Positions 5,401 through 50,919 of a stretch of DNA of 64,000 bases are shown one piece after another. A program made the translations under genes and the position numbers. The stretch spans positions 6,572,001 to 6,636,000 of the forward strand of contig CP136062.1 in NCBI GenBank assembly GCA_032622095.1, in the 5' to 3' direction. A model generated the notes under the pieces. The model did no database searches and was not told where the DNA came from. It saw nothing but the letters and a program-made list of their open reading frames with translations. The stretch is from Siphonodentalium dalli. Its lineage: Eukaryota > Mollusca > Scaphopoda > Gadilida > Siphonodentaliidae. Numbering within the stretch: position 1 is the stretch's first letter; each line of letters opens with the position of its first letter.

Positions 5401-5633
5401 CAGTATGCTGTCGGCGTGCATGTACAGGGTTACCTTGAAAAACTAAAATTAATCAATCAACCAAAGCCATAGGACCAGTGGCGGGCTAATATGCTAGTAT
5501 TCATATAAACTGATTTGGATATATGAAGTTCTAAACATACCGTAAGGTAATCAATTGAGTTCCGCATCTAGCGATCACGAACCATGTAAAGAATTTGCAT
5601 AGTGTCGATACAGATTACAGATACATGTACCCC

Positions 5634-18548: not shown

Positions 18549-19619
18549 TTGTTAACAAAATTCGTTTTATTTAATGTAAGGTGTATATATAGCTGCGGGT
18601 GAAGTGGAGTGAACAGTTTACTTTCCTTCAGATATATAGTTCAAATATAAATATGACCCTAACAGCAACATCGACCGGACAAGACATAACAACCGCTAAC
18701 CCCATTACCAATATAACAATTAAACTCAACATGATTAGTATTGATTACCCTTCAAAACGATAACGTCATGCATCAGTTTACGGCCAATTTGTTAACCACC
18801 GCACACACAAAATGGTTAAAAAACACGGAAAAAATATGAGTTTTATGTACGGTTATAGTTTGTGAATATACATGTGTATAGAATAAAGGGGCTACCAGCA
18901 TCTCGCCAATATATTATATGAAATAAATCGATGGAATATTCAACACCAAACTATGTAGAAAATAGAAGTGTTAATATATGGAAACGAGGATCAGGCAATA
19001 TGAAGTCTTCACCTCTTTGTCTACGGAAGGGTTGGAAATATTGGTTTTAGGAATAAGATAAGATACGAATAAAATAGTGTTAGGGATAGCAGGAGGCAGA
19101 GAGAGAAAAGAGAGTGTGAGAAGGAGACACTATAGCAGACGAGTGGGGGACAGTGTCTTTCCGATGGCACGTCTTGTACTAAACGAGTTATTTTATACAC
19201 AAGTAAAATACTAGGTTTCGTGAAAATTGGAATGGAACACTGAATATATACACAATCAAAGGCCAATGCACCTATAACTTTATGACACTTTTCAATATGT
19301 CATATTGGGGAAAAATAGAGTTGAGAATGCACGACGAGCAGACACCGTGACCTGTATACATTACAAAGAACTCGTGATGGCCATGTTCACTATCCTATAG
19401 TAGTATGATATCGCTATATATGCAAAATGTTATTGTAAAAGTTACAGCAATACGTTTATACATGTCGACTACACATGTGCCATTTTGGTATGTTGTCATA
19501 AATAGAAGGTACACCGATGACACACAAAGCAATTGTTGCTAGCCAACATACTATACGCTGCATACCCCATGACCGGAAGTAAGTGCTCGAAACTTCTGCA
19601 TATGGATAAATCATAAAGT
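18549..19619. other. No confident gene
   Basis: A TATATATAG box-like word at ~18583, CTTTCCTTCAG at ~18621 and an ATG at 18652 that opens 36 codons (MTLTATSTGQDITTANPITN…) give a weak promoter-plus-start look. No continuation exon was found. The rest is AT-rich unique DNA. Confidence 0.3.
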
Positions 19620-20795
19620 ATGATGACGTGCGTAGAAATGATTGAAATCGGTCTTGTTGCATGCATGGGTAAATTATAGTGTATTATGACGTGCGTGGAA
19701 ACTATTGAAATCGGCCTTGTTGCATGCATGGGTAAATTATAGTGTATTATGACGTGCGTAGAAATGATTGAAATCGGCCTTGTTGCATGCATGGGTAAAT
19801 TACAGTGTATTATGACGTGCCTGGAAATGATTGAAATCGGCCTTGTTGCATGCATGGGTAAATCATAGGGTATTATGACGTGCGTGGAAACTATTGAAAT
19901 CGGCCTTGTTGCATGCATGGGTAAATCATAGTGTATTATGACGTGCGTGGAAATGATTGAAATCGGCCTTGTTGCATGCATGGGTAAATCATAGTGTATT
20001 ATGACGTGCGTGGAAATGATTGAAATCGGCCTTGTTGCATGCATGGGTAAATTATAGTGTATTATGACGTTCGTGGAAATGATTGAAATCGGTCTTGTTG
20101 CATGCATGGGTAAATTATAGTGTATTATGACGTTCGTGGATATGATTGAAATAGGTCTTGTTGCATGCATGGGTAAATCATGGGCTATTATGACGTGCGT
20201 AGAAATGATTGAATTCGGCCTTGTTGCATGCATGGGTAAATCATAATGTATTATGACGTGCCTGGAAAATATGGAAATCGGCCTTGTTGCATGCATGGGT
20301 AAATCATGGGGTATTATGACGTTCGTAGAAATGATTGAAATCGGCCTTGTTGCATGCATGGGTAAATTATTGTGTATTATGACGTGCGTGGAAATGATTG
20401 AAATTGGTCTTGTTGCATGCATGGGTAAATCATAGGGTATTATGACGTGCGTGGAAATGATTGAAATCGGTCTTGTTGCATGCATGGGTAAATCATAAAG
20501 TATTATGACGTGCGTGGAAATGATTGAAATCGGCCTTGTTGCATGCATGGGTAAATCATAGGGTATTATGACGTGCGTAGAAATGATTGAAATCGGTCTT
20601 GTTGCATGCATGGGTAAATCATAAAGTATTACGACGTGATTGGAAATGATTGAAATCGGCCTTGTTGCATGCATGGGTAAATCATAAAGTATTATGACGT
20701 GCGTGAAAACTATTGAAATCGGCCTTGTTGCATGCATGGGTAAATCATAAAGTATTATGACGTGCGTGGAAACTATTGAAATCGGTCTTGTTCAA
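19620..20795. repeat. 63-bp satellite, ~19 copies, open across its length on the minus strand
   Basis: The plus-strand unit contains TATTATGACGTGCGTGGAAA, TGATTGAAATCGG, CTTGTTGCATGCATGGGTAA. GCATGCATGG starts at 19659 and 19722, giving a 63-bp period. Each unit carries a TGACGTG word (CRE-like half-site) and a GCATGCATG palindrome. The minus strand encodes a 21-residue repeat (MHATRPISIISTHVIIHYDL-P) through a 413-codon frame that ends in unrelated sequence at 19496. The period alone explains the openness; no signal peptide, promoter or family is seen. Confidence 0.9.
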
Positions 20796-35094: not shown

Positions 35095-35999
35095 GGTGGG
35101 TTTTATCGAGCAGCTGCGAAAATGTATGACAACGATAGTACGGAGCAATATTTTTCCACGCTAACAGTCAGTACGGAGTAGAGATAACGTTTATTGGATG
35201 CGACTTTTCAATATATCTGGAAAAAAATACATAACGTCGATAGATTGCGTAGCTATAAAGAGTTCCCCCATATTCGGTATGTCAAATAACACTACAAAAT
35301 GTAATTTGGCAACGCATTAAAGCGTCAATTTATCTGTGTCACTTGTGTACAACTTTGGAGTACAAAGCACAAACGGTGTGCACAGTTGTATACAGTTGTA
35401 TACTACACACATGGACATGTAGGCATGGAATGGGGTTGAGATGTGTCTCACCTCACCAAAACTTTGGCTAATATCTTCAACAGTTATTCATTTCGTGGGA
35501 ATATTAAAACAAAATTGTGTTGAAATTGGCATTTTGATATCACAGCCAGCATATTTAGAGTGAAATTCGTTGTTTTAGACTAAAAGTGCGACGGGGAGCA
35601 CATGACATTTCACATACTTGCATATTAGGTGTAGCTCAAGAGAGTGTACAGTTACACTTTCAGTGTGGACATCTCAAACGGCTGACATATGGGTCATGCT
35701 TTCTATCAATTAACATTTTCTAAAGTAATTGTCTTAATGTTATAGGCCTACGTACTACATGTATACACTGTATGTTCATCCATTATACGATACGAATTAT
35801 TTGCATATAAGCAACAACAGGGGCAACCTGTTGCCAAAACAATAATTTATAAATAGATAAAAGTGAACATGACATGTCTAGCTTCAAGTATTGACATGTC
35901 TAGCTACATTTATTTGTATTGCCTTTTGGCATGCATAATATTTATTCAGAACGGTTATCAAAGACGTACTGGAACACGTTGCACAATTTACAGCAAATA
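35095..35999. other. No confident gene
   Basis: Unique AT-rich DNA. A very short open stretch at 35122-35181 (MYDNDSTEQYFSTLTVSTE-stop) is noted but cannot be supported. Confidence 0.4.
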
Positions 36000-36212
36000 C
36001 AGTAATGCCCAAATTAATTGACCACTTAACCACAGCAGAATTATGGGTAATTTTTCAGGATTTAGTCGGAAATATGGCTTGTTTGCATTCATCGGAAAGC
36101 TCTCGGCTAGACCTTTCCGATGAATGGAAACAAGCCATATTTCCGACTAAATCCTGAAAAATTACCCATAATTCTGCTGTGGTTAAGTGGTCAATTACTT
36201 TAGGCATTACTG
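36000..36212. mobile_element. 213-bp palindromic MITE (Tc1/mariner-like), copy 2
   Basis: Same length and structure as 16649-16861: ends CAGTAATGCCCAAATTAATT / inverse, TA on both sides (35998-35999, 36213-36214), and a long hairpin whose centre is GGAAAGCTCTCGGCTAGACC. A few centre substitutions distinguish the copies. Confidence 0.85.
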
Positions 36213-36575
36213 TAGATATGTTTTCACCAAGTATAGTTAAAACCTCACCACTTATCGTACACTAGCGTTATCAACCTAATCGAGAATACACCTTTGTAAA
36301 ATTGCAACAACCGTATCGTATTTTGTGATAACTGATGCTTAAAACGCGATACTCGTCTATTTTACATCAAAACAGCAGCATTATAAGTACAATCGCTAAA
36401 GGCGTAAAGAAAACTAACACTAAGGCCCTTCTTCGCCATGCAACCTCCCTGATCTGATATTTTCGTCGTAGCGACAAATCTACATGGCGATACTACGATA
36501 ATGGGATGCCTATATATTCAATTCAAGTTTATTCTGATCGTCAAGTTGAGACATTACAGAGATATACGGACATAA
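36213..36575. other. No gene seen
   Basis: Unique DNA. The phrase ATTCAATTCAAGTTTATTCTG near 36518 (shown elsewhere as ATTCAATTCAAGTTTATT) resembles ends of non-LTR retrotransposons but is too short to classify. Confidence 0.35.
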
Positions 36576-37198
36576 TCTCATATATATTTTGAAGACCTCT
36601 GTCTGTATGTCTGTCTGTCTGTTTGTCTGTCATTAATACAAATCTACGATTCTCGACCGATCGGGACGAAACTTGGTACGTGTGTGTAGTTTGAACAGGC
36701 GGTCGTCGTTGTCGTATTGGCGAGCCCGTGCTACGTCCGAGCAGCGCATGCGCAGACGAGATCTCGGAAACGGGTGTAGCTATCGACTTAAAATTTGGTA
36801 TGTGAATGTATCTTGCCCCGAATACGAATTTTATCGGGACGCCGAGCCCGTGCGATGCCAGCTTCGCGCATGCGCAGACGAGAGCTTGGAAACGGGAGGA
36901 GCTATCGACTTGAAATTTGGTATGTGAATGTATCTTGCCCCGGATACGAATTTTATCGGGTCGCCGAGCCCGTGCGATGCCAGCTTCGCGCATGCGCAGA
37001 CGATATCTCGGAAACGGGTGGAACTATCGACTTGAAATTTGGTATGTGAATGTATCTTGCCCCGGATACGAATTTTATCGGGTCGACGAGCCCGTGCGAC
37101 GCCAGCTTCGCGCATGCGAAGACCAGATCTCGGAAACGGGTAGAGCTATCGAAATTTGTTTTTTGAATAGCCCGGACAACGTCGGGCTCATCGGCTAG
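36576..37198 (+). mobile_element. Helitron-like unit 1, 623 bp
   Basis: It starts TCTCATATATATTTTGAAGA after an A and ends with a GC hairpin (GCCCGGACAACGTCGGGC), seven bases, then CTAG, followed by T. TC…hairpin…CTRR between A and T is the Helitron terminus pattern. The interior has a (CTGT)n-like tract, the phrase CGATCGGGACGAAACTTGG, and 122-bp internal tandem repeats (TATCGACTT at 36781, 36903, 37025). It has no Rep/helicase, so it is non-autonomous. Open frames across the internal repeats are by-products. Confidence 0.75.
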
Positions 37199-38180
37199 TC
37201 TCATATATATTTTGAAGACCTCTGTTTGTCTGTCTGTCTGTATGTATGTTTGTTTGTCATTTATACAAATCTACAATTCTCGACCGATCGGGACGAAACT
37301 TGGTACGTGTGTGTAGTTTGACCAGGCGGTGGATATTGTCGTATTGGCGAGCCCGTGCGGCGCCCGCTTCGGGCATGCGCAGACGAGATCTCGGAAACGG
37401 GTGGAGCTATCGACTTGAAATTTGCTATGTGGATGTATCTTGTCCCGGATGCGAATTTTATCGGGTCGCCGAGCCCGTGCGACGCCAGCTTCGCGCATGC
37501 GCAGACGAGATATCGGAAACGGTGGAGCTATCGACTTGAAATTTGGTATGTGAATGTATCTTACCCCGGATACGAATTTTATCGGGTCGCCGAGCCCGTG
37601 CGGCGCCCGCTTCGCTCATGCGCAGACGAGATCTCGGAAACGGGTGGAGTTATCGACTTGAAATCTCATATATATTTTGAAGACCTCTGTCTGTATGTAT
37701 GTTTGTTTGTTTGTTTGTTTGTCTGTCTGTCATTTATACAAATCTACGATTCTCGACCGATCGGGACGAAACTTGGTATGTGTGTGTAGTTTGACCAGGC
37801 GGTGAACGTTGTCGTATTGGCGAGCCCGTGCGGCGCCCGCTTCGCGCATGCGCAGACGAGATCTCGGAAACGGGTGGAGCTATCGACTTGATATTTGGTA
37901 TGTGAATGTATCTTGCCCGGATGCGAATTTTATCGGGACGCCGAGCCCGTGCGACGCCAGCTTCGCGCATGCGCAGACGAGATCTCGGCAACGGGTGGAG
38001 CTATCGACTTGATATTTGGTATGTGAATGTATCTTGCCCCGGGTGCGAATTTTATCGGGACGCCGAGCCCGTGCGACGCCAGCTTCGCGCATGCGCAGAC
38101 CAGATCTCGGAAACGGGTGGAGCTATCGACTTGAAATTTGGTTATTGAATAGCCCGGACAACGTCGGGCTCATCGGCTAG
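37199..38180 (+). mobile_element. Helitron-like unit 2 (contains a nested 5' start)
   Basis: It starts directly after the CTAG of unit 1 with TCTCATATATATTTTGAAGA and ends in the same hairpin and CTAG at 38177-38180. A second identical 5' start lies inside at 37664, with no 3' end before it. The unit is therefore two partial copies fused, the first lacking its 3' terminus. The internal 122-bp repeats are as in unit 1. Confidence 0.72.
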
Positions 38181-38732
38181 TGTACTATATATTTTGGAAC
38201 TTCTGTATGTCCGCCTGTGTGTGACTGTGTGTGTGTTATAGACTCGAAAACTGCTCGACCAATCCGACTAAAATTTGGTATGTAGGCCTACTTTGATATG
38301 GGGAACGACATGGGCAGGTCCAATTCCATGTGCGACCGTGTCCTTGACCTCGCTCATATACGCTAATACAGGCATGTTTCTGGAACTCGAACGATCCGAC
38401 TCGAGTTTGTTATGATTGCCTACTTTGATCCCGGGAACAATATGGGCGGGTCCAATTTCACGTGCGACCGTGTCATTGACCTTGATCATATACGCAGATA
38501 TAGGCATGTTTCTGGGCCTCGACCGATCCGACTCAAATTTGGTTTGTATATAGGCCTACGTTTATCCCGGGGACAATATGGGCGGGTCCAATTTCACGTG
38601 CGACCGTGTCATTTGCCTTGACACCTCGCTCATATACATAGGTATGTTTCTGGACCGATCGGACAATAGTTTTTTTTTCTTTCTCAAAAGAAATCCCTAA
38701 ATAGCCCAGACGAAGTCGGGCACATCAGCTAG
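38181..38732 (+). mobile_element. Helitron-like unit 3, divergent subfamily
   Basis: It follows CTAG with TGTACTATATATTTTGGAAC instead of the TC start and ends GCCCAGACGAAGTCGGGC, seven bases, CTAG at 38729-38732. Internal repeats (~130 bp, three copies) have a different sequence (CGACCGATCCGACTCAAATT, GGGCGGGTCCAATTTCACGT) but the same layout. The altered start suggests a truncated or diverged 5' end. Confidence 0.6.
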
Positions 38733-39255
38733 TCTCATATATATTTTGAAGACCTCTGTCTGTATGTATGTTTGTTTATCTGTCTGTCTGTCATTAATAC
38801 AAATCTACGATTCTTGACCGATCGGGACGAAACTTGGTACGTGAGTGTAGTTTGACCAGGCGGTAGTCGTTGTCGTATTGGAGAGCCCGTGCGGCGCCCG
38901 CTTCGCGCATGCGCAGACGAGATCTCGGAAACGGGTGGAGCTATCGACTTGAAATTTGCTATGTGAATGTATCTTGCCCCGGATGCGAATTTTATCGGGT
39001 CGCCGAGCACGTGCGACACCAGCTTCGCGCATGCGCAGACGAGATCTCGGAAACGGGTGGAGCTATCGACTTGAAATTTGGTATGTGAATGTATCTTGCC
39101 CCGAATACGAATTTTATCGGGTCGCCGAGCCCGTGCGACGCCAGCTTCGCGCATGCGCAGACCAGATCTCGGAAACGGGTAGAGCGATCGACTTGAAATT
39201 TGGTTTTTGAATAGCCCGGATGAATAGCCCGGACAACGTCGGGCTCACCGGCTAG
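38733..39255 (+). mobile_element. Helitron-like unit 4, 523 bp
   Basis: It starts TCTCATATATATTTTGAAGA immediately after the unit 3 CTAG and ends with hairpin and CTAG at 39252-39255, followed by T. The subterminal word GAATAGCCCGGA is duplicated just before the hairpin. Two to three internal 122-bp repeats. Confidence 0.73.
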
Positions 39256-39267
39256 TTTATATATATA

Positions 39268-40289: not shown

Positions 40290-40870
40290 AATAATATAGA
40301 GTATTTGTATAGCGCCATATCCCGTATGGCTCATGGCGCTGAACAATTCACACAAACGCAGTCACACACATTCACACTATAACATATACGCAATAAATAA
40401 TATGCATGTATTTCAATAATTAAGTCTCCTCAACGTTTTCTGATGTTATTTGTCCGAAATGGGAGATGAATAGGTGAGTTTTTAGGGCCGATTTGAATGT
40501 TTCCAAACAGTCAGACTGTTTCACCTCTTTGGGAAGGTTGTTCCAAATGGTCGGCCCGTAGACCTCGAAAGAACGGCGACCAAAGTACATCAGATCTCGT
40601 TTAGGTACAACCATCGCATTCGCATCCTGTGATCGAAGTGGTCGAGCAGGTACATATTTGACCAACAATGTATCAATATATGGTGGCAAAGCATTATCAA
40701 TATCCGACTTTCTATAACACAAAGTAGCATGTTTGTACACAATTCGTTCAAATATGGGAAGCCAATGTAATTTATACAACAGTGGGGTAACATGATCAAA
40801 TTTGCCTGCACGGCACACAATTTTTGCAGCAATATTAACAATTTTTTGAAGTTTGTGAAGTTGATAATCT
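40290..40870 (-). mobile_element. 5'-truncated non-LTR retrotransposon (CR1/L2-like), present only in unit 1
   Basis: Units 2 and 3 have the uninterrupted site AAAGATATGGGGGTGG; unit 1 has 581 extra bases between AAAGATAT and GGGGGTGG. On the minus strand the insert ends with a 3' UTR reading GGCGCTATACAAATACTCTA then TATTATTAT, like CR1/L2-group tails. It encodes the end of a reverse transcriptase ORF. No clear target duplication is visible, which is common for CR1-type insertions. Confidence 0.85.
40420..40869 (-). pseudogene. Reverse transcriptase C-terminal fragment (non-LTR)
   Basis: About 149 codons are open from the truncation point to the stop at 40420. They show the usual order of the RT C-terminal region: LQKIVNIAAKIV, then DHVTPLLYKLHWLPIFERIV, then an R-P-L-R-S motif, VPKRDLMYFGRRSFEVYGPT, IWNNLPKEVK and FKSALKTHLF. 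The catalytic FADD-type motif lies upstream and is absent because of 5' truncation, so the copy cannot be active. The frame has no stops or frameshifts, which fits a recent insertion. In a complete element this region belongs to the RT of ORF2; clade CR1/L2 is inferred. Confidence 0.85.
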
Positions 40871-41117
40871 GGGGGTGGTTTAAGGTTCTGTTGCCCAATT
40901 TGTACAGATACAGGTTTCCCCGTCCATCATGATATAAGATTTGTGAGGCATGATCCAGGAGCGGTTTACAGAAATTTGGAAAAGATTTGGAACGTACATA
41001 CCAAAGTAAAGTTGAATAGCCAAAATAGATAATTTTGAACTTTAACAAAGAGCTCCCACATTTTGGAAATATAGAATTGACACCGGAAGCGTCATCAGTT
41101 GCTAGCGCTTGATTCAT
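40871..41117 (-). CDS. Repeated ORF, unit 1 copy, unknown
   Basis: The minus strand opens MNQALATDDASGVNSIFPKC and continues …FKIIYFGYSTLLWYVRSKSF. The same frame is present in units 2 (44688-44978) and 3 (48895-49185). In unit 1 it runs into the retrotransposon insertion. No family is recognised, and conservation among units is explained by recent duplication. Confidence 0.2.
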
Positions 41118-41545: not shown

Positions 41546-41890
41546 CTAACTATGTATAGTTTGTACAACTTGTTCAAACTCTGTAATTTGATAAGTAAAT
41601 TCAGAGAGAAGTTCGTTAAGGGATCCAAATTCTTCTTCAACCTCTGATTGTGAAATATCATCAGTAAATTCCATGTTACAGTCATTATGCTTAGGATATA
41701 TTCTTGACCAGGTGTCAATTATATCTTGTTGTAGGTTAAATAGTTGGTCCACTATTATACTGTTGGATTGACTAGAAACATATTTGATGTTGTTGTATTT
41801 AAGATTTGTGTAATTTAATATATGGGTTTTATATGCTACTTGCATATAAAGTTGAGGTTTGAAGATTTTAAAGTTACTGGATCTAAACAT
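41546..41890 (-). pseudogene. Repeated 170-codon ORF, unit 1 copy with premature stop
   Basis: Identical in layout to the ORFs in units 2 and 3, but codon 115 (AAG in the others) is TAG, cutting it to 114 residues. See 45258-45770 for the description. Confidence 0.4.
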
Positions 41891-43312
41891 TTTTATAAGT
41901 ATATATGCAATAGGTTGTCGTTTACAATTATATATTAATAGGTAGTCGTTAATTCAATTTATATTAATATATGAAGACGGGTACATGCAGTGAGCAATAA
42001 GGTATTGGTATGTTAAAACATAGGTTATATGTCTGGGTGTAGTATATTTAGAAGCTATTATGAGCTTAGCTTGAAAGAACAAGTAATTATTCACTGAACA
42101 GTAGTGAGACTCGTCAGTTCAGCTTGCGTACCTCGTATAAACAATGTAAACCGAGTTCACATACAATTTTACCAGTCAGGTTGAAACTACAAAAACAATA
42201 TGCATAAGAAGGCGTCAAAACAAGTTATGACAGTTACTTATTGATGTTTACAGCATCAAAAGTCTCGAAATTCTAATACCGCGGCCAGTTTCAAAGCTTT
42301 GCAAAGATCAAAGCATCATTTAGCATGGAGCAAGTAATAAAGAGCGTTCCGTGGTCACGCTACCATATTTGGGGGGAATAATGAGCGTTGATATTCTTCT
42401 ATATTATGTTACCTTGGGAGTTATTATAAGTGTAAAATAGCGTGCATATTAGGTCAAAATAATTAGGTTAAACACAAATATATGTCCATCAGACAGTTGA
42501 TTGTCTGCCACAAACAATTAAAAGTAAAAGCTATTTAATTACCGTTCATTGAGTTATGGGCATAGGTCACTATGCTATTTCTACGGTATCAGATTAGACA
42601 GACATAATCAAGAAAATTTGGGGAAAGTTCATTAGTAAATAATTAATTATGATCTCACACATCATTTTGTAGTAGTAAGCGAAATATTTCTATAGTCTGA
42701 TGAGTACCATGCATTATGTTTTAGATGTAGATATGGACTGCAATAGCTCTGAATTTTCGATGGATGCGCCGCGCCGGCAGGGTTTGTTGACACTCGCACC
42801 TCGTATAAACAATGTAAACTGATTTCACATACAATTTTACCAGTCAGGTTGAAACTATATAAACAATATGCATAAGAAGGCGTAAAAACAAGTTATGACA
42901 GTTAATTATTGATGTTTACAGCATCAAAAGTCTCGAAATTCTAATACCGCGGCCAGTTTCAAAGCTTTGCAAAGATCAAAGCATCACTTAGCATGGAGCA
43001 AGCAATAAAGAGCGTTCCGTGGTCACGCTACCATATTTGGGGAGAATAATGAGCGTTGATATTCTTCCATATTATGTTACCTTGGGATTTATTATAAGTG
43101 TAAAAATAGCGCACATATTAGGTTAAAATAATTAGGTTAAACACAAATACATGTCTATCAGACATTTGATTGTCCGCCACAAACAATTAAAAGTAAAAGT
43201 TATTTAATTACCGTTATTTGAGTCTTGGGCATAGGTCTCTATGCTATTTCTACGGTATCAGATTTGACTGACACACTCAAGAAAAATTTGGGGAAAGTTA
43301 TTAAGTAAATCA

Positions 43313-43886
43313 TTAAGTGTGAATTGCGATATTGAATAAATCTAATTCTAAGTTACCTTATGTGAATGCATGCCATAGTATTATATAGACAATGTAGATT
43401 CCGTCATCCCTGTCATTCGAATTATTTCTGTGTATCTATCTTATATACATGTGCACAATATTCAGAAATCAACGAACACACGCAGCCCAACTCCGCGGAT
43501 CCATGGCAGCAAATGATTTCAAACGATAAGTGTTGATGCACGTAATGACGTAGTTAAACGTAAAGCAAGTCGCGCGATTGAATGACGTCATAGTCAACAG
43601 GTGCTTGGCGTGGCAGGGCTGTATACATATGCCTGTGGGGAGCGGGATCATAGGGGGCTTCAGCAAGGATAGATATCCATGATTGATATAAATTATCTGG
43701 TCAACAGTACTATTATGCATGCATGGCATTAAATGCATGGTACCATGACTGTACTGTCGTGGTAATAGTTATGAAACGGGAGGGGTAGCTAAAATTTCTT
43801 TATAATCTGATAGGTATCATGACGTTTAGATCATGATTGATATAAAATATTATCGTTTCAACAGTAATATTATGCATGCATGGCAT
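43313..43886 (+). repeat. Block S inside unit 1 (truncated)
   Basis: Matches 33936-34520 and then jumps from TGCATGCATGGCAT to unit sequence, so ~220 bp of the right end is missing relative to unit 2. A 12-bp insert near 43553 (GTTAAACGTAAAGC region) is shared with unit 2 but absent from the 34-kb copy. Confidence 0.8.
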
Positions 43887-44687
43887 TAATATATAATTTA
43901 TATATACGCTTTAGATGTAGATATGGACTGCAATAGCTCTGAATTTCCGATGGATGCGCCGGCAAGGTTTGTTGACACTAGCAGACGTTTTTGGTTCTGC
44001 TATGTGACGTCACATGTGTGACGAGTAAAAAGAGCGTTTCTTTTTACAAGGAATTATCTTGTTCTTAAATGCGGTCTGTGTATAATATGTTATAATAATG
44101 AAAATTACTAGATTGATAGCCCTATAAAACAATAATTGAATTGTTATGATAAACCAGCCTTATACTGGTATAGTTAAAGTTCCATATTTATAGTTTAGAA
44201 TCACACAGACATTTCATACATTTCCATATATCACGTGTAAAAGCCAAATTCGGCTGCTGAAGGAATATAACGACGTGAATCCCAGCAAAATAAACAGATA
44301 ATGTAAATGAAAAGAGTCAGTCCTTGAAATAAGGGTTTTAAAATAACTGAATATAATAAGACATTATGAAATAAGTTGTTAAACGTCAGAACACGAAAGC
44401 CGTCCGCAGTAGGTAGCCCTAGCGACGATAAGTATATGTTTTATGGTTTATGACAAATGGCAAAGGTGATGTCAAGGCCTAGTAATCTACAAACTGGGTG
44501 GACTGCACCACACCGACCCCACGGACTAGCAGGAAAAAACTAGTATGGAAGATCGACTGGTAACCGAGGGCGAACCCTCGGCTATCTATAAGTCAACAAA
44601 GGATATAGAATAGTAAAATGACTGATAATTCTGTCGCTATAAATATATTTTTTCACGTGATACGTGCATAAAACGGGTGTGTGTATA

Positions 44688-44978
44688 TCATGATGGAAAA
44701 GGAACGTAGCTGTAAAGCATATTAAAGATATGGGGGTGGTTTACGGTTCTGTTGCCCAATTTGTACAGATACAGGTTTCCCCGTCCATCATGATATAAGA
44801 TTTGTGAGGCATGATCCAGGAGCGGTTTACAGAAATTTGGAAAAGATTTGGAACGTACATACCAAAGTAAAGTTGAATAGCCAAAATAGATAATTTTGAA
44901 CTTTAACAAAGAGCTCCCACATTTTGGAAATATAGAATTGACACCGGAAGCGTCATCAGTTGCTAGCGCTTGATTCAT
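44688..44978 (-). CDS. Repeated ORF, unit 2 copy, unknown
   Basis: A 96-codon frame beginning MNQALATDDASGVNSIFPKC. It ends in sequence that in unit 1 is displaced by the retrotransposon. No domain is seen; it may be a chance ORF inside the duplicated block. Confidence 0.2.
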   Translation of the reverse strand: MNQALATDDASGVNSIFPKCGSSLLKFKIIYFGYSTLLWYVRSKSFPNFCKPLLDHASQILYHDGRGNLYLYKLGNRTVNHPHIFNMLYSYVPFPS

Positions 44979-45257
44979 GACTTCCTAAACGGTTGCCATG
45001 TTTATCCTTTTCGGCACTTAACTAGCAAGAAGGTATATGTACTAACCAAGCTATGCCCCGGCCGTAGCCGTCGCATCCGGCTAAAATTACCGACAAGATC
45101 ATGCTCACCGGGAGTTTAACATTTTTGGGCCCAACCCATTCCCGTGTAGTTTTAGTAATTATTATGTGTTATTATAGAAACTACCTTTATAGGTAAAAAA
45201 TCAGTAAGATATCATAGAAACATCATATCTATAATCAGTATAACATTTGTGACTAAA

Positions 45258-45770
45258 TCATAGAACACATCTATATTTAGTATACCATTTGTGACTCAAA
45301 GTCAATGTCCGCCATGAAGTAATATTTGTAGATGTTGTACATAACATGTATTTGCAAATCTTTGTACATCTTCCTAATGAATCTACGACACCTTCTGCAT
45401 AGCTAATGTTCTCATCTACACATGTCTTACTATGTATAGTTTGTACAACTTGTTCAAACTCTGTAATTTGATAAGTAAATTCAGAGAGAAGTTCGTTAAG
45501 GGATCCAAATTCTTCTTCAACCTCTGATTGTGAAATATCATCAGTAAATTGCATGTTACAGTCATTATGCTTAGGATATATTCTTGACCAGGTGTCAATT
45601 ATATCTTGTTGTAGGTTAAATAGTTGGTCCACTATTATACTGTTGGATTGACTAGAAACATATTTGATGTTGTTGTATTTAAGATGTGTGTAATTTAATA
45701 TATGGGTTTTATATGCTACTTGCATATAAAGTTGAGGTTTGAAGATTTTAAAGTTACTGGATCTAAACAT
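45258..45770 (-). CDS. 170-codon ORF in the duplicated unit, unknown
   Basis: It begins MFRSSNFKIFKPQLYMQVAY just after a TATACTTATAAAA stretch, and contains an acidic stretch (DDISQSEVEEEFGSLNELLS) and …TCVDENISYAEGVVDSLGRC. Composition is protein-like (Ser, Glu, Gln, Asn). Near residue 130 the +2 frame takes over as the more coding-like one (RRFIRKMYKDLQIHVMYNIY…), which suggests an old frameshift or a splice. Unit 3 differs by a few residues (H to N at 'NYT.LKY', Q to E); unit 1 has a stop. Unknown family. It could be a relic of a gene caught in the amplification. Confidence 0.35.
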   Translation of the reverse strand: MFRSSNFKIFKPQLYMQVAYKTHILNYTHLKYNNIKYVSSQSNSIIVDQLFNLQQDIIDTWSRIYPKHNDCNMQFTDDISQSEVEEEFGSLNELLSEFTYQITEFEQVVQTIHSKTCVDENISYAEGVVDSLGRCTKICKYMLCTTSTNITSWRTLTLSHKWYTKYRCVL

Positions 45771-47192
45771 TTTTATAAGTATATATGCAATAGGTTGTCG
45801 TTTACAATTATATATTAATAGGTAGTCGTTAATTCAATTTATATTAATATATGAAGATGGGTGCATGCAGTGAGCAATAAGGTATTGGTATGTTAAAACA
45901 TAGGTTATATGTCTGGGTGTAGTATATTTAGAAGCTATTATGAGCTTAGCTTGAAAGAACAAGTAATTATTCACTGAACAGTAGTGAGACTCGTCAGTTC
46001 AGCTTGCGTACCTCGTATAAACAATGTAAACCGAGTTCAGATACAATTTTACCAGTCAGGTTGAAACTACATAAACAATATTCATAAGAAGGCGTCAAAA
46101 CAAGTTATGACAGTTACTTATTGATGTTTACAGCATCAAAAGTCTCGAAATTCTAATACCGCGGCCAGTTTCAAAGCTTTGCAAAGATCAAAGCATCATT
46201 TAGCATGGAGCAAGTAATAAAGAGCGTTCCGTGGTCACGCTACCATATTTGGGGGGAATAATGAGCGTTGATATTCTTCTATATTATGTTACCTTGGGAG
46301 TTATTATAAGTGTAAAATAGCGTGCATATTAGGTCAAAATAATTAGGTTAAACACAAATATATGTCCATCAGACAGTTGATTGTCTGCCACAAACAATTA
46401 AAAGTAAAAGCTATTTAATTACCGTTCATTGAGTTATGGGCATAGGTCACTATGCTATTTCTACGGTATCAGATTAGACAGACACAATCAAGAAAATTTG
46501 GGGAAAGTTCATTAGTAAATAATTAATTATGATCTCACACATCATTTTGTAGTTGTAAGCGGAATATTTCTATAGTCTGATGAGTACCATGCATTATGTT
46601 TTAGATGTAGATATGGACTGCAATAGCTCTGAATTTTCGATGGATGCGCCGCGCCGGCAGGGTTTGTTGACACTCGCACCTCGTATAAACAATGTAAACT
46701 GATTTCACATACAATTTTACCAGTCAGGTTGAAACTATATAAACAATATTCATAAGAAGGCGTAAAAACAAGTTATGACAGTTAATTATTGATGTTTACA
46801 GCATCAAAAGTCTCGTAATTCTAATACCGCGGCCAGTTTCAAAGCTTTGCAAAGATCAAAGCATCACTTAGCATGGAGCAAGCAATAAAGAGCGTTCCGT
46901 GGTCACGCTACCATATTTGGGGAGAATAATGAGCGTTGATATTCTTCCATATTATGTTACCTTGGGAGTTATTATAAGTGTAAAAATAGCGCACATATTA
47001 GGTTAAAATAATTAGTTTAAACACAAATACATGTCTATCAGACATTTGATTGTCCGCCACAAACAATTAAAAGTAAAAGTTATTTAATTACCGTTATTTG
47101 AGTCTTGGGCATAGGTCTCTATGCTATTTCTACGGTATCAGATTTGACTGACACACTCAAGAAAAATTTGGGGAAAGTTATTAAGTAAATCA

Positions 47193-47986
47193 TTAAGTGT
47201 GAATTGCGATATTGAATAAATCTAATTCTAAGTTACCTTATGTGAATGCATGCCATAGTATTATATAGACAATGTAGATTCCGTCATCCCTGTCATTCGA
47301 ATTATTTCTGTGTATCTATCTTATATACATGTGCACAATATTCAGAAATCAACGAACACACGCAGCCCAACTCCGCGGATCCATGGCAGCAAATGATTTC
47401 AAACGATACTTGTTGATGCACGTAATGACGTAGTTAAACGTAAAGCAAGTCGCGCGATTGAATGACGTCATAGTCAACAGGTGCTTGGCGTGGCAGGGCT
47501 GTATACATATGCCTGTGGGGAGGGGGATCATAGGGGGCTTCAGCAAGGATAGATATCCATGATTGATATAAATTATCTGGTCAACAGTACTATTATGCAT
47601 GCATGGCATTAAATGCATGGTACCATGACTGTACTGTCGTGGTAATAGTTATGAAACGGGAGGGGTAGCTAAAATTTCTTTATAATCTGATAGGTATCAT
47701 GACGTTTAGATCATGATTGATATAAAATATTATCGTTTCAACAGTAATATTATGCATGCATGGCATAGCATGGTACAATGACTGTACCGTCGTGGTACGA
47801 GTTATGAAACAGGAGGGGGTAGCTAAAATGTCCACACCAGTCCTGACTCAAATACCAAACCAAGGAATAGTAATTGATGTCATGATTAGTATAGACACGA
47901 AAGTCAGCAAAGAAATGTTTAAAATTTGAACATGTCATGTGCCGTGAATATATCATAGAAAGCTTGTTAAAGGTATATGAAACGCG
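47193..47986 (+). repeat. Block S inside unit 2 (near complete)
   Basis: Matches 33936-34710 through the common end ATGAAACGCG and then switches to unit sequence (TATCAGATTAGACAG). Confidence 0.85.
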
Positions 47987-48894
47987 TATCAGATTAGACA
48001 GACACAATCAAGAAAAATTTGGGGAAAGTTATTAAGTAAATCATTAATTATGATCTCACACATCATCCCGTAGTTGCAAGCAGAATATGTCTGTAGTCTG
48101 ATGAGTACCATTACGCTTTAGATGTAGATATGGACTGCAATAGCTCTGAATTTCCGATGGATGCGCCGGCAAGGTTTGTTGACACTAGCAGGCGTTTTTG
48201 GTTCTGCTATGTGACGTCACATGTGTGACGAGTAAAAAGAGCGTTTCTTTTTACAAGGAATTATCTTGTTCTTAAATGCGGTCTGTGTATAATATGTTAT
48301 AATAATGAAAATTACTAGATTGATAGCCCTATAACACAATAATTGAATTGTTATGATAAACCAGCCTTATACTGGTATAGTTAAAGTTCCATATTTATAG
48401 TTTAGAATCACACAGACATTTCATACATTTCCATATATCACGTGTAAAAGCCAAATTCGGCTGCTGAAGGAATATAACGACGTGAATCCCAGCAAAATAA
48501 ACAGATAATGTAAATGAAAAGAGTCAGTCCTTGAAATAAGGGTTTTAAAATAACTGAATATAATAAGACATTATGAAATAAGTTGTTAAACGTCAGAACA
48601 CGAACGCCGTCCGCAGTAGTTAGCCCTAGCGACGATAAGTATATGTTTTATGGTTTATGACAAATGGCAAAGGTGATGTCAAGGCCTAGTAATCTACAAA
48701 CTGGGTGGACTGCACCACACCGACCCCACGGACTAGCAGGAAAAAACTAGTATGGAAGATCGACTGGTAACCGAGGGCGAACCCTCGGCTATCTATAAGT
48801 CAACAAAGGATATAGAATAGTAAAATGACTGATAATTCTGTCGCTATAAATATATTTTTTCACGTGATACGTGCATAAAACGGGTGTGTGTATA

Positions 48895-49185
48895 TCATGA
48901 TGGAAAAGGAACGTAGCTGTAAAGCATATTAAAGATATGGGGGTGGTTTAAGGTTCTGTTGCCCAATTTGTACAGATACAGGTTTCCCCGTCCATCATGA
49001 TATAAGATTTGTGAGGAATGATCCAGGAGCGGTTTACAGAAATTTGGAAAAGATTTGGAACGTACATACCAAAGTAAAGTTGAATAGCCAAAATAGATAA
49101 TTTTGAACTTTAACAAAGAGCTCCCACATTTTGGAAATATAGAATTGACACCGGAAGCGTCATCAGTTGCTAGCGCTTGATTCAT
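48895..49185 (-). CDS. Repeated ORF, unit 3 copy, unknown
   Basis: Same 96-codon frame as 44688-44978, with one substitution (…LLDHSSQILYH instead of HASQ) and one near the end (V to L). Confidence 0.2.
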   Translation of the reverse strand: MNQALATDDASGVNSIFPKCGSSLLKFKIIYFGYSTLLWYVRSKSFPNFCKPLLDHSSQILYHDGRGNLYLYKLGNRTLNHPHIFNMLYSYVPFPS

Positions 49186-49464
49186 GACTTCCTAAACGGT
49201 TGCCATGTTTATCCTTTTCGGCACTTAACTAGCAAGAAGGTATATGTACTAATCAAGCTATGCCCCGGCCGTAGCCGTCGCATCCGGCTAAAATTACCGA
49301 CAAGATCATGCTCACCGGGAGTTTAACATTTTTGGGCCCAACCCATTCCCGTGTAGTTTTAGTAATTTTTATGTGTTATTATAGATACTACCTTTATAGG
49401 TAAAAAATCAGTAATATATCATAGAAACATCATATCTATAATCAGTATAACATTTGTGACTAAA

Positions 49465-49977
49465 TCATAGAACACATCTATATTTAGTATACCATTTGTG
49501 ACTCAAAGTCAATGTCCGCCATGAAGTAATATTTGTAGATGTTGTACATAACATGTATTTGCAAATCTTTGTACATCTTCCTAATGAATCTACGACACCT
49601 TCTGCATAGCTAATGTTCTCATCTACACATGTCTTACTATGTATAGTTTGTACAACTTGTTCAAACTCTGTAATTTGATAAGTAAATTCAGAGAGAAGTT
49701 CGTTAAGGGATCCAAATTCTTCTTCAACCTCTGATTGTGAAATATCATCAGTAAATTCCATGTTACAGTCATTATGCTTAGGATATATTCTTGACCAGGT
49801 GTCAATTATATCTTGTTGTAGGTTAAATAGTTGGTCCACTATTATACTGTTGGATTGACTAGAAACATATTTGATGTTGTTGTATTTAAGATTTGTGTAA
49901 TTTAATATATGGGTTTTATATGCTACTTGCATATAAAGTTGAGGTTTGAAGATTTTAAAGTTACTGGATCTAAACAT
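49465..49977 (-). CDS. 170-codon ORF, unit 3 copy, unknown
   Basis: Intact counterpart of 45258-45770, beginning MFRSSNFKIFKPQLYMQVAY. Confidence 0.35.
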   Translation of the reverse strand: MFRSSNFKIFKPQLYMQVAYKTHILNYTNLKYNNIKYVSSQSNSIIVDQLFNLQQDIIDTWSRIYPKHNDCNMEFTDDISQSEVEEEFGSLNELLSEFTYQITEFEQVVQTIHSKTCVDENISYAEGVVDSLGRCTKICKYMLCTTSTNITSWRTLTLSHKWYTKYRCVL

Positions 49978-50919
49978 TTTTAAAAGTATATATGCAATAG
50001 GTTGTCGTTTACAATTATATATTAATAGGTAGTCGTTAATTCAATGTATATTAATATATGAAGACGGGTGCATGCAGTGAGCAATAAGGTATTGGTATGT
50101 TAAAACATAGGTTATATGTCTGGGTGTAGTATATTTAGAAGCTATTATGAGCTTAGCTTGAAAGAACAAGTAATTATTCACTGAACAGTAGTGAGACTCG
50201 TCAGTTCAGCTTGCGTACCTCGTATAAACAATGTAAACCGAGTTCACATACAATTTTACCAGTCAGGTTGAAACTACATAAACAATATTCATAAGAAGGC
50301 GTCAAAACAAGTTATGACAGTTACGTATTGATGTTTACAGCATCAAAAGTCTCGAAATTCTAATACCGCGGCCAGTTTCAAAGCTTTGCAAAGATCAAAG
50401 CATCATTTAGCATGGAGCAAGTAATAAAGAGCGTTCCGTGGTCACGCTACCATATGTGGGGGGAATAATGAGCGTTGATATTCTTCTATATTATGTTACC
50501 TTGGGAGTTATTATAAGTGTAAAATAGCGTGCATATTAGGTCAAAATAATTAGGTTAAACACAAATATATGTCCATCAGACAGTTGATTGTCTGCCACAA
50601 ACAATTAAAAGTAAAAGCTATTTAATTACCGTTCATTGAGTTATGGGCATAGGTCACTATGCTATTTCTACGGTATCAGATTAGACAGACACAATCAAGA
50701 AAATTTGGGGAAAGTTCATTAGTAAATAATTAATTATGATCTCACACATCATTTTGTAGTTGTAAGCGGAATATTTCTATAGTCTGATGAGTACCATGCA
50801 TTATGTTTTAGATGTAGATATGGACTGCAATAGCTCTGAATTTTCGTATATAGGTTACTGCCCACATAAATAATATGTATACATAGTTATAGTATACTCA
50901 CTCTAAATACATTGGATGT

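Follow-up and report, generated by a model that had tools for sequence, protein, structure and literature searches.

Tandem Helitrons serve as evidence for rolling-circle multimers, and tandem or adjacent copies are already known from bat, maize, silkworm and plants. In Myotis and Bombyx, tandem Helitrons have been ascribed to a bypassed termination signal (as cited in the excerpted texts of PMC4067079 and PMC4778049), and the same excerpts report distantly related Helitrons directly adjacent to each other in bat and maize. For a pair of adjacent maize Helitrons joined head to tail, consecutive insertions have been argued, with two options for the target: a GT behind the resident CTAG, or an AT that the host A forms with the resident's first T (PMC2267711, in excerpt). 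Arrays of truncated Helitrons occur at plant centromeres (Xiong et al. 2016, as cited in the excerpts of PMC12628747, PMC5148889 and PMC5876387). A canonical Helitron has a hairpin 10-15 bp ahead of its 3' end (PMC13286980, in excerpt), and a TT target is given for DINE-1/Helentrons, which are relatives of HINE (PMC4067079, in excerpt). A report of head-to-tail Helitron joints at the scale described below was not found in the open-licence literature, which omits most subscription journals; scale and exactness are what is new here.

The window analysed here is a stretch of 64 kb (C2:6572001-6636000) of a 2.227-Gb assembly in 9 contigs. Positions 36576-39255 of the window consist of five small Helitron-type units (U1-U5), which lie head to tail in a single orientation with a host A on the left and a host T on the right. 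Four units belong to family A and one to a second family (B). The sequence-only reading had two subfamilies alternating along this array; the two families and their different monomers stand, but the order is A, A, A, B, A, and strict alternation does not hold. The features are as follows.

36575..36576, no strand: left border of the array, host A / T of U1
36576..37198, plus strand: U1, family A, 623 bp; 26-nt 5' end, TCTG-type microsatellite, m1 and three 122-bp monomers, hairpin and CTAG; preceded by A
37169..37188, plus strand: 3' hairpin of U1; 6-bp stem AGCCCG/CGGGCT with 8-nt loop, 6 nt ahead of the CTAG at 37195-37198
37199..37663, plus strand: U2, family A, 465 bp, without a 3' end; its final ...CTTGAAA abuts U3, at what is a GAAA^TTTGG site in intact relatives
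37664..38180, plus strand: U3, family A, 517 bp, complete; its 7-site haplotype is that of U2
38151..38170, plus strand: 3' hairpin of U3, identical in sequence to that of U1; CTAG at 38177-38180
38181..38732, plus strand: U4, second family (B), 552 bp; start TGTACTATATATTTTGG, three 132-bp monomers, hairpin and CTAG
38704..38721, plus strand: 3' hairpin of U4, with a bulged stem; CTAG at 38729-38732
38733..39255, plus strand: U5, family A, 523 bp, complete; 13-bp duplication ahead of the hairpin; followed by host T
39226..39245, plus strand: 3' hairpin of U5, from the sequence scan, the best fold being a longer structure around it; CTAG at 39252-39255
39255..39256, no strand: right border of the array, G of the U5 CTAG / host T

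CTAG abuts the T of the next unit exactly at 37198/37199 and 38732/38733, where the next unit starts TCTCATATATAT, and at 38180/38181, where it starts TGTACTATATAT. The inner joints therefore read CTAG/TCTC twice, CTAG/TGTA once and GAAA/TCTC once, the outer borders being A/TCTC and CTAG/T. At least three junctions of this kind, two of them with a canonical start, had been claimed from the sequence alone, as had one unit that lacks its 3' end and contains a nested 5' start. Both claims were borne out, the latter by U2, which runs from GAAA into U3. The hairpin that had been placed ahead of CTAG is likewise present, in four of the five units, and folds only moderately better than shuffled sequence (z-scores -1.9 to -2.8; 9, 7, 1 and 7 of 200 shuffles fold equally well). 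In U1, U2, U3 and U5 an identical 26-nt 5' end is followed by a TCTG/TGTT microsatellite, a 22-nt stretch, a 130-bp first monomer and monomers of 121-122 bp that are 90-98% alike by alignment. U4 follows the same plan, but its 132-bp monomers are only 41-47% alike to the A monomers by alignment. The 26-nt A 5' end was found four times in the window without mismatch and not at all in 100 shuffles; the hairpin motif, at up to 3 mismatches, was also found four times and never in shuffles, and the CTAG-end motif four times against a shuffle mean of 0.03. All of these matches lie in the array, and blastn at E 1e-3 detected no other array copy elsewhere in the 64-kb window. The head-to-tail Helitron chain in the window is thereby confirmed as real.

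Several other features of the window were recorded. The palindrome YGCGCAYGCGCR, which we take to be an NRF-1-like motif, occurs at nine places in 36865-39159, on either strand, always within A monomers, and is absent from the rest of the window. The observed/expected CpG ratio is 1.50 in the array and 0.84 outside it. At 35998-36214 lies a fold-back with two 106-nt arms, 96% complementary and 5 nt apart, whose ends look TA-flanked and MITE-like. The sequence GGCGGGCTAATATGCTAG at 5480-5497, matched with 2 mismatches and with T as the next base, may be a decayed 3' end from another Helitron family. An open frame of 431 aa with short peptide repeats (MHATRPISI...) spans 19496-20791 and is minisatellite-like. 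One frame (INDYLLIYNCKRQ...) occurs three times in 41546-50040, at 41546, 45258 and 49465, in copies about 4 kb apart. The open frame at 40420-40926, which had no Pfam match, presumably resembles the C-terminal part of a non-LTR reverse transcriptase. Pfam searches of eight window frames gave nothing above the curated cut-off, and the window had no Rfam match at gathering scores. The A 5' end was absent from viral and prokaryote collections, and viral contigs also lacked the A 3' end.

Genome-wide, the A 5' end was found 21,304 times at up to 3 mismatches, its exact 19-mer (the head) 16,978 times, both with reversed controls of 0, and the exact A 3' 18-mer 17,881 times. GGCTAG directly precedes 6,787 of the exact heads (40%; reversed control 0), although GGCTAG by itself is no proof of an A-family end. 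Uniform targeting of AT sites would lead to about one such joint. Because the genome-wide counts include satellites and segmental duplicates, joint counts are not numbers of events. The genome contains thousands of exact CTAG/TC joints. Two regions of contig C1 have a regular layout: at 188.850-188.869 Mb (188850288-188868830, minus strand), 17 joints of a family C end with an A head, among those listed, stand 1.06-1.20 kb apart and form a regular satellite from Helitron ends, and at C1:31736873-31757832, 24 A joints among those listed show recurring spacings that suggest duplicated long arrays.

The joints were read individually in a sample of twenty 10-kb stretches surrounding the first perfect heads found on C1 and 11 shorter stretches picked for clustered heads. 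In stretches L009-L028, a Helitron-like start follows immediately on 24 of the 34 A 3' ends (duplicates in L023 and L011 counted in). The 31 stretches and the window together have 69 A 3' ends, a tally that retains L023 (a duplicate of L021), the second L011 repeat and one family D end in L026 labelled A at 3 mismatches. Directly behind these ends lies an A head in 33 cases, another Helitron-like head in 21 (12 of which start TCTATTATA) and host DNA in 15, with T as the first host base in 15 of 15. The 33 A-end/A-head joints include four without the G of CTAG, which read GGCTA/TCTC (two in L012, one each in L016 and L043), and one with the head shifted by an indel; no G-less GGCTA end with host DNA next to it was found among the 69. 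The base preceding A heads (n=72) is A in 39, G in 32 and T in one, so that nearly all heads have A or a Helitron end ahead of them. Behind the 65 CTAG-ended A ends, the next 130 nt contained no A head out of register, two flagged cases being exact joints with an indel in the head. A shifted landing was seen in L051, where an A head lies 11 nt behind the CTAG of another family, and U3, inside U2 in the window, may be another. U4 is about 81-86% identical, over separate pieces, to its nearest relative in the sample.

Isolated copies between A and T with the same ends had been proposed as the check on the element borders, and it was supplied by empty sites, one for a single copy and one for a two-unit array. 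When host flanks were joined and compared with the sample, the site of the single copy in L020 matched at 60 of 63 bases, gapless across the joint. The site of the two-unit array in L039 matched L017 at 138 of 157 bases with no gap at the joint, and that of the four-unit array in L017 matched L020 at 130 of 140 with small gaps near the AT-rich joint; 25 outer flanks were tried, and the remaining matches were less clear or unusable. Since the single copy and the two-unit array sit precisely between A and T, the elements are Helitrons. A single copy and chains elsewhere in the genome thus use the same borders and the same kind of site, and insertion at A^T without target duplication is documented there by L020 and L039. 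In the window, four of five units begin with TC (U4 begins with TG) and four of five end with CTAG (U2 has no 3' end). U1, U3 and U5 have a 6-bp stem with an 8-nt loop 10 nt from the end by scan, and U4 has a bulged stem by fold. Terminal inverted repeats are absent, as in none of the five units do the first 75 nt share an inverted 7-mer with the last 75 nt. Membership in the Helentron/HINE group was rejected, as 11-13 bp subterminal inverted repeats were not found (by exact 7-mers) and the target is A^T, not TT. By the features examined, the evidence supports canonical Helitrons, and we favour non-autonomous ones.

Missed termination predicts that neighbours are initially identical. We aligned 70 A units over about 145 nt, excluding L042-1246 and L049+566, which lack the anchor, and the L021-L023 pairs. 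The 28 exactly joined A-A pairs had the same median distance, 0.062, as 2,343 between-locus pairs. Their mean was slightly lower (0.057 compared to 0.066, P 0.039), and distances of 0.02 or less were found in 4 of 28 neighbour pairs compared to 42 of 2,343 pairs between loci. Equal distances would also arise among old copies of a single burst, so seven subfamily sites with two common alleles were examined. The haplotype, concordance and length sets exclude L023 and the second L011 repeat. Concordance at the seven sites was 0.592 for neighbours and 0.533 between loci (P 0.20), from which the proportion of shared templates is put at 14% (bootstrap range -14 to 48%). The haplotype differed in 20 of 28 neighbour pairs, one of them compared at two sites only, and was equal in eight, compared to 304 of 2,145 (14%) between loci (P 0.036). 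Unit length agreed within 10 nt in only 1 of 24 neighbour pairs, and monomer number was equal in 5 of 24 compared to 425 of 1,610. Of the variants carried by just two units, 3 of 26 were common to neighbours, where about 1.3% was expected. Together, the haplotype, length, monomer and distance comparisons indicate that a minority of joints may share a template and that most do not. Most sampled neighbouring units are not copies of one template, and up to 48% of joints are compatible with a shared one.

The window shows the same picture. Its four A units have a mean distance of 0.072, compared to 0.065 for four random copies (P 0.70), and are thus as unlike as random copies. Three haplotypes are present among them; the one found in both U2 and U3 is common in the sample, at 14 of 67. 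In a star-phylogeny test of U1, U2, U3 and U5 over 402 sites, five two-two sites were observed against an expectation of about 1 to 2 (P 0.002 to 0.04).

These comparisons bear most directly on a rolling-circle concatemer, the model given for bat and plant arrays, in which the 3' terminator is bypassed, one circle is copied repeatedly and the multimer is inserted once. Exact CTAG/TC joints like those of Helraiser circles (PMC4778049, in excerpt) agree with it, as do the single A and single T around the entire array, the four nearly identical neighbour pairs, and the eight pairs of equal haplotype out of 28 set against 14%. So does the shared haplotype of U2 and U3, which have two 5' ends but a single 3' end between them, like the Xiong et al. 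arrays summarised in the excerpt of PMC12628747. Against these points stand the foreign family, U4, in the middle of the array, neighbours that mostly differ in haplotype and nearly all in length, and the excess of two-two sites. We consider this model unlikely, and as the sole cause of the window array it is rejected on neighbour distances, haplotypes and the star-phylogeny test. The sequence-only reading had expected such tandems from rolling-circle replication with missed termination; as a general cause this finds no support in neighbours that mostly differ in haplotype and nearly all in length, and the exact joining of different families also speaks against it. Rolling-circle or local duplication is still compatible with a minority of joints (the four pairs at 0.02 or less, the eight of equal haplotype and possibly U2-U3), but not as the main builder.

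A smaller number of joining events would be needed if ready-made pairs were mobilised together, the inner terminator being skipped, so that few events gave rise to many joints. The weak correlation between left and right units across arrays (r 0.18, P 0.047) points in this direction, and the four G-less joints could be skipped terminators. However, A units that stand before a family C unit form no clade (mean distance 0.076 within the group and 0.073 to those before A or host DNA) and haplotype combinations are varied, so that this explanation also appears improbable. An ordinary satellite expanded by unequal crossing-over has a precedent in regular C/A repeats such as those at C1:188.850-188.869 Mb, but single copies with the same borders exist, one with an empty site, and sampled neighbours are mostly unlike; we regard it as very unlikely for the window array, and for family A as a whole it is refuted by the single insertions. 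Tandem repeats are prone to misassembly, but an assembly artefact is scarcely credible where the same exact joints occur thousands of times in a 9-contig assembly, and in the sample with varied neighbours.

Serial independent insertion explains the chain better than missed termination, with a minority of joints possibly being multimers. We give a probability of roughly 0.6 to the reading that the array is a chain of independently transposed Helitrons, each inserted exactly at the ends of resident Helitrons. An incoming single-stranded Helitron, or a circle, would be joined exactly at the terminus of a resident. The simplest landing site would be host A^TC at the 5' border of the resident, which is a canonical AT target and also the place where the transposase would nick the resident when mobilising it. 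Since this A^TC border is re-created at every insertion, the chain can keep growing upstream. At the point where U2 breaks off, intact relatives have GAAATTTGG, and U3 may therefore have inserted into the A^T of that sequence, inside U2 at GAAA^TTTGG. Such an insertion would have left the remainder of U2 immediately downstream of U3, a direct repeat open to loss, and the U2 tail would later have been lost, probably by collapse of the two adjacent direct repeats. The base typical of last monomers is absent from the last monomer of U2, so the missing part may extend beyond the tail. Alternatively, U2-U3 may be a truncated rolling-circle dimer. More tentatively, and at somewhat less than even odds, serial insertion may reflect a Helitron system that homes to the exact termini of residents of its own and other families, with A^TC as a self-renewing site, self-extending chains, and chains that seed satellites.

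The evidence on which resident end receives the newcomer is divided. The divergence and end-order comparison of families A, C and D excludes L023 and the second L011 repeat. Genome-wide, A precedes C in 2,167 cases and the reverse order, C before A, was counted 485 times, as raw counts by exact patterns of unequal strictness and with an amplified satellite among the C/A joints; in the sample, the numbers are 14 of 62 and 0 of 7. Family C is more diverged than A (nearest-neighbour distance 0.146, n 14, one outlier of 0.424, compared to 0.034), which places the younger family upstream, in line with newcomers landing upstream. A-A pairs show no polarity, as the upstream unit is closer to the consensus in 13, the downstream unit in 13, and two are tied. 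Three of ten D ends lead into A, and U4 lies upstream of U5, both against a strict rule of younger units upstream.

A mobilising partner was sought among Rep-domain proteins. The genome has at least 151 matches to Helitron_like_N (150 of 457 candidates scored), with some frames of more than 1,600 aa, and an A-type head lies 3.8 kb upstream of one match, in the same orientation. This Rep-helicase element is an unproven candidate for the mobilising partner. The generic start was found on neither strand of 10 Rep loci of 3.5 kb, and a search of their plus strand for the 3' end gave one CGGCTAG, in L038, as the sole match. The candidate partner has a frame end in L050 (C1:13739900-13741300) that we take to be helicase-like, and a minisatellite of CTTCGGTGAT(C/T)GGTCGCC units lies behind this frame; no Helitron end was recognised there by eye.

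The one-template prediction for neighbours fails at most sampled joints, and exact end-to-end joints are thousands-fold above uniform AT targeting. Should integration directed to ends prove general, a head-to-tail joint would not in itself be proof of rolling-circle bypass, and a direct route would lead from dispersed transposons to satellite-like arrays. As far as the excerpted sources describe them, known systems share parts of this picture. The maize pair (PMC2267711) resembles the window array in its exact CTAG/TC joint, in a G/T boundary that replaces A/T and in the joining of different elements, but is one pair of gene-carrying elements, whereas here there are thousands of joints between short elements and a population-level test. 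Helraiser circles (PMC4778049) also join CTAG directly to TC and use an AT target; those are circular intermediates in cell culture, and here the joints form a genomic chain. Myotis and Bombyx likewise have arrays or perfect head-to-tail neighbours, whereas most sampled neighbours here are unlike. HINE/Cg_HINE of oyster (PMC7492417) has a similar 4-nt microsatellite near the 5' end, satellite-like central repeats and a 3' palindrome; in contrast to HINE, no subterminal inverted repeat was found here, the ends are 5' TC and CTAG, and the target is A^T. The plant arrays are like U2-U3 in having several 5' ends and one 3' end, but in the window only U2 of the five units lacks a 3' end, and the array combines two families.
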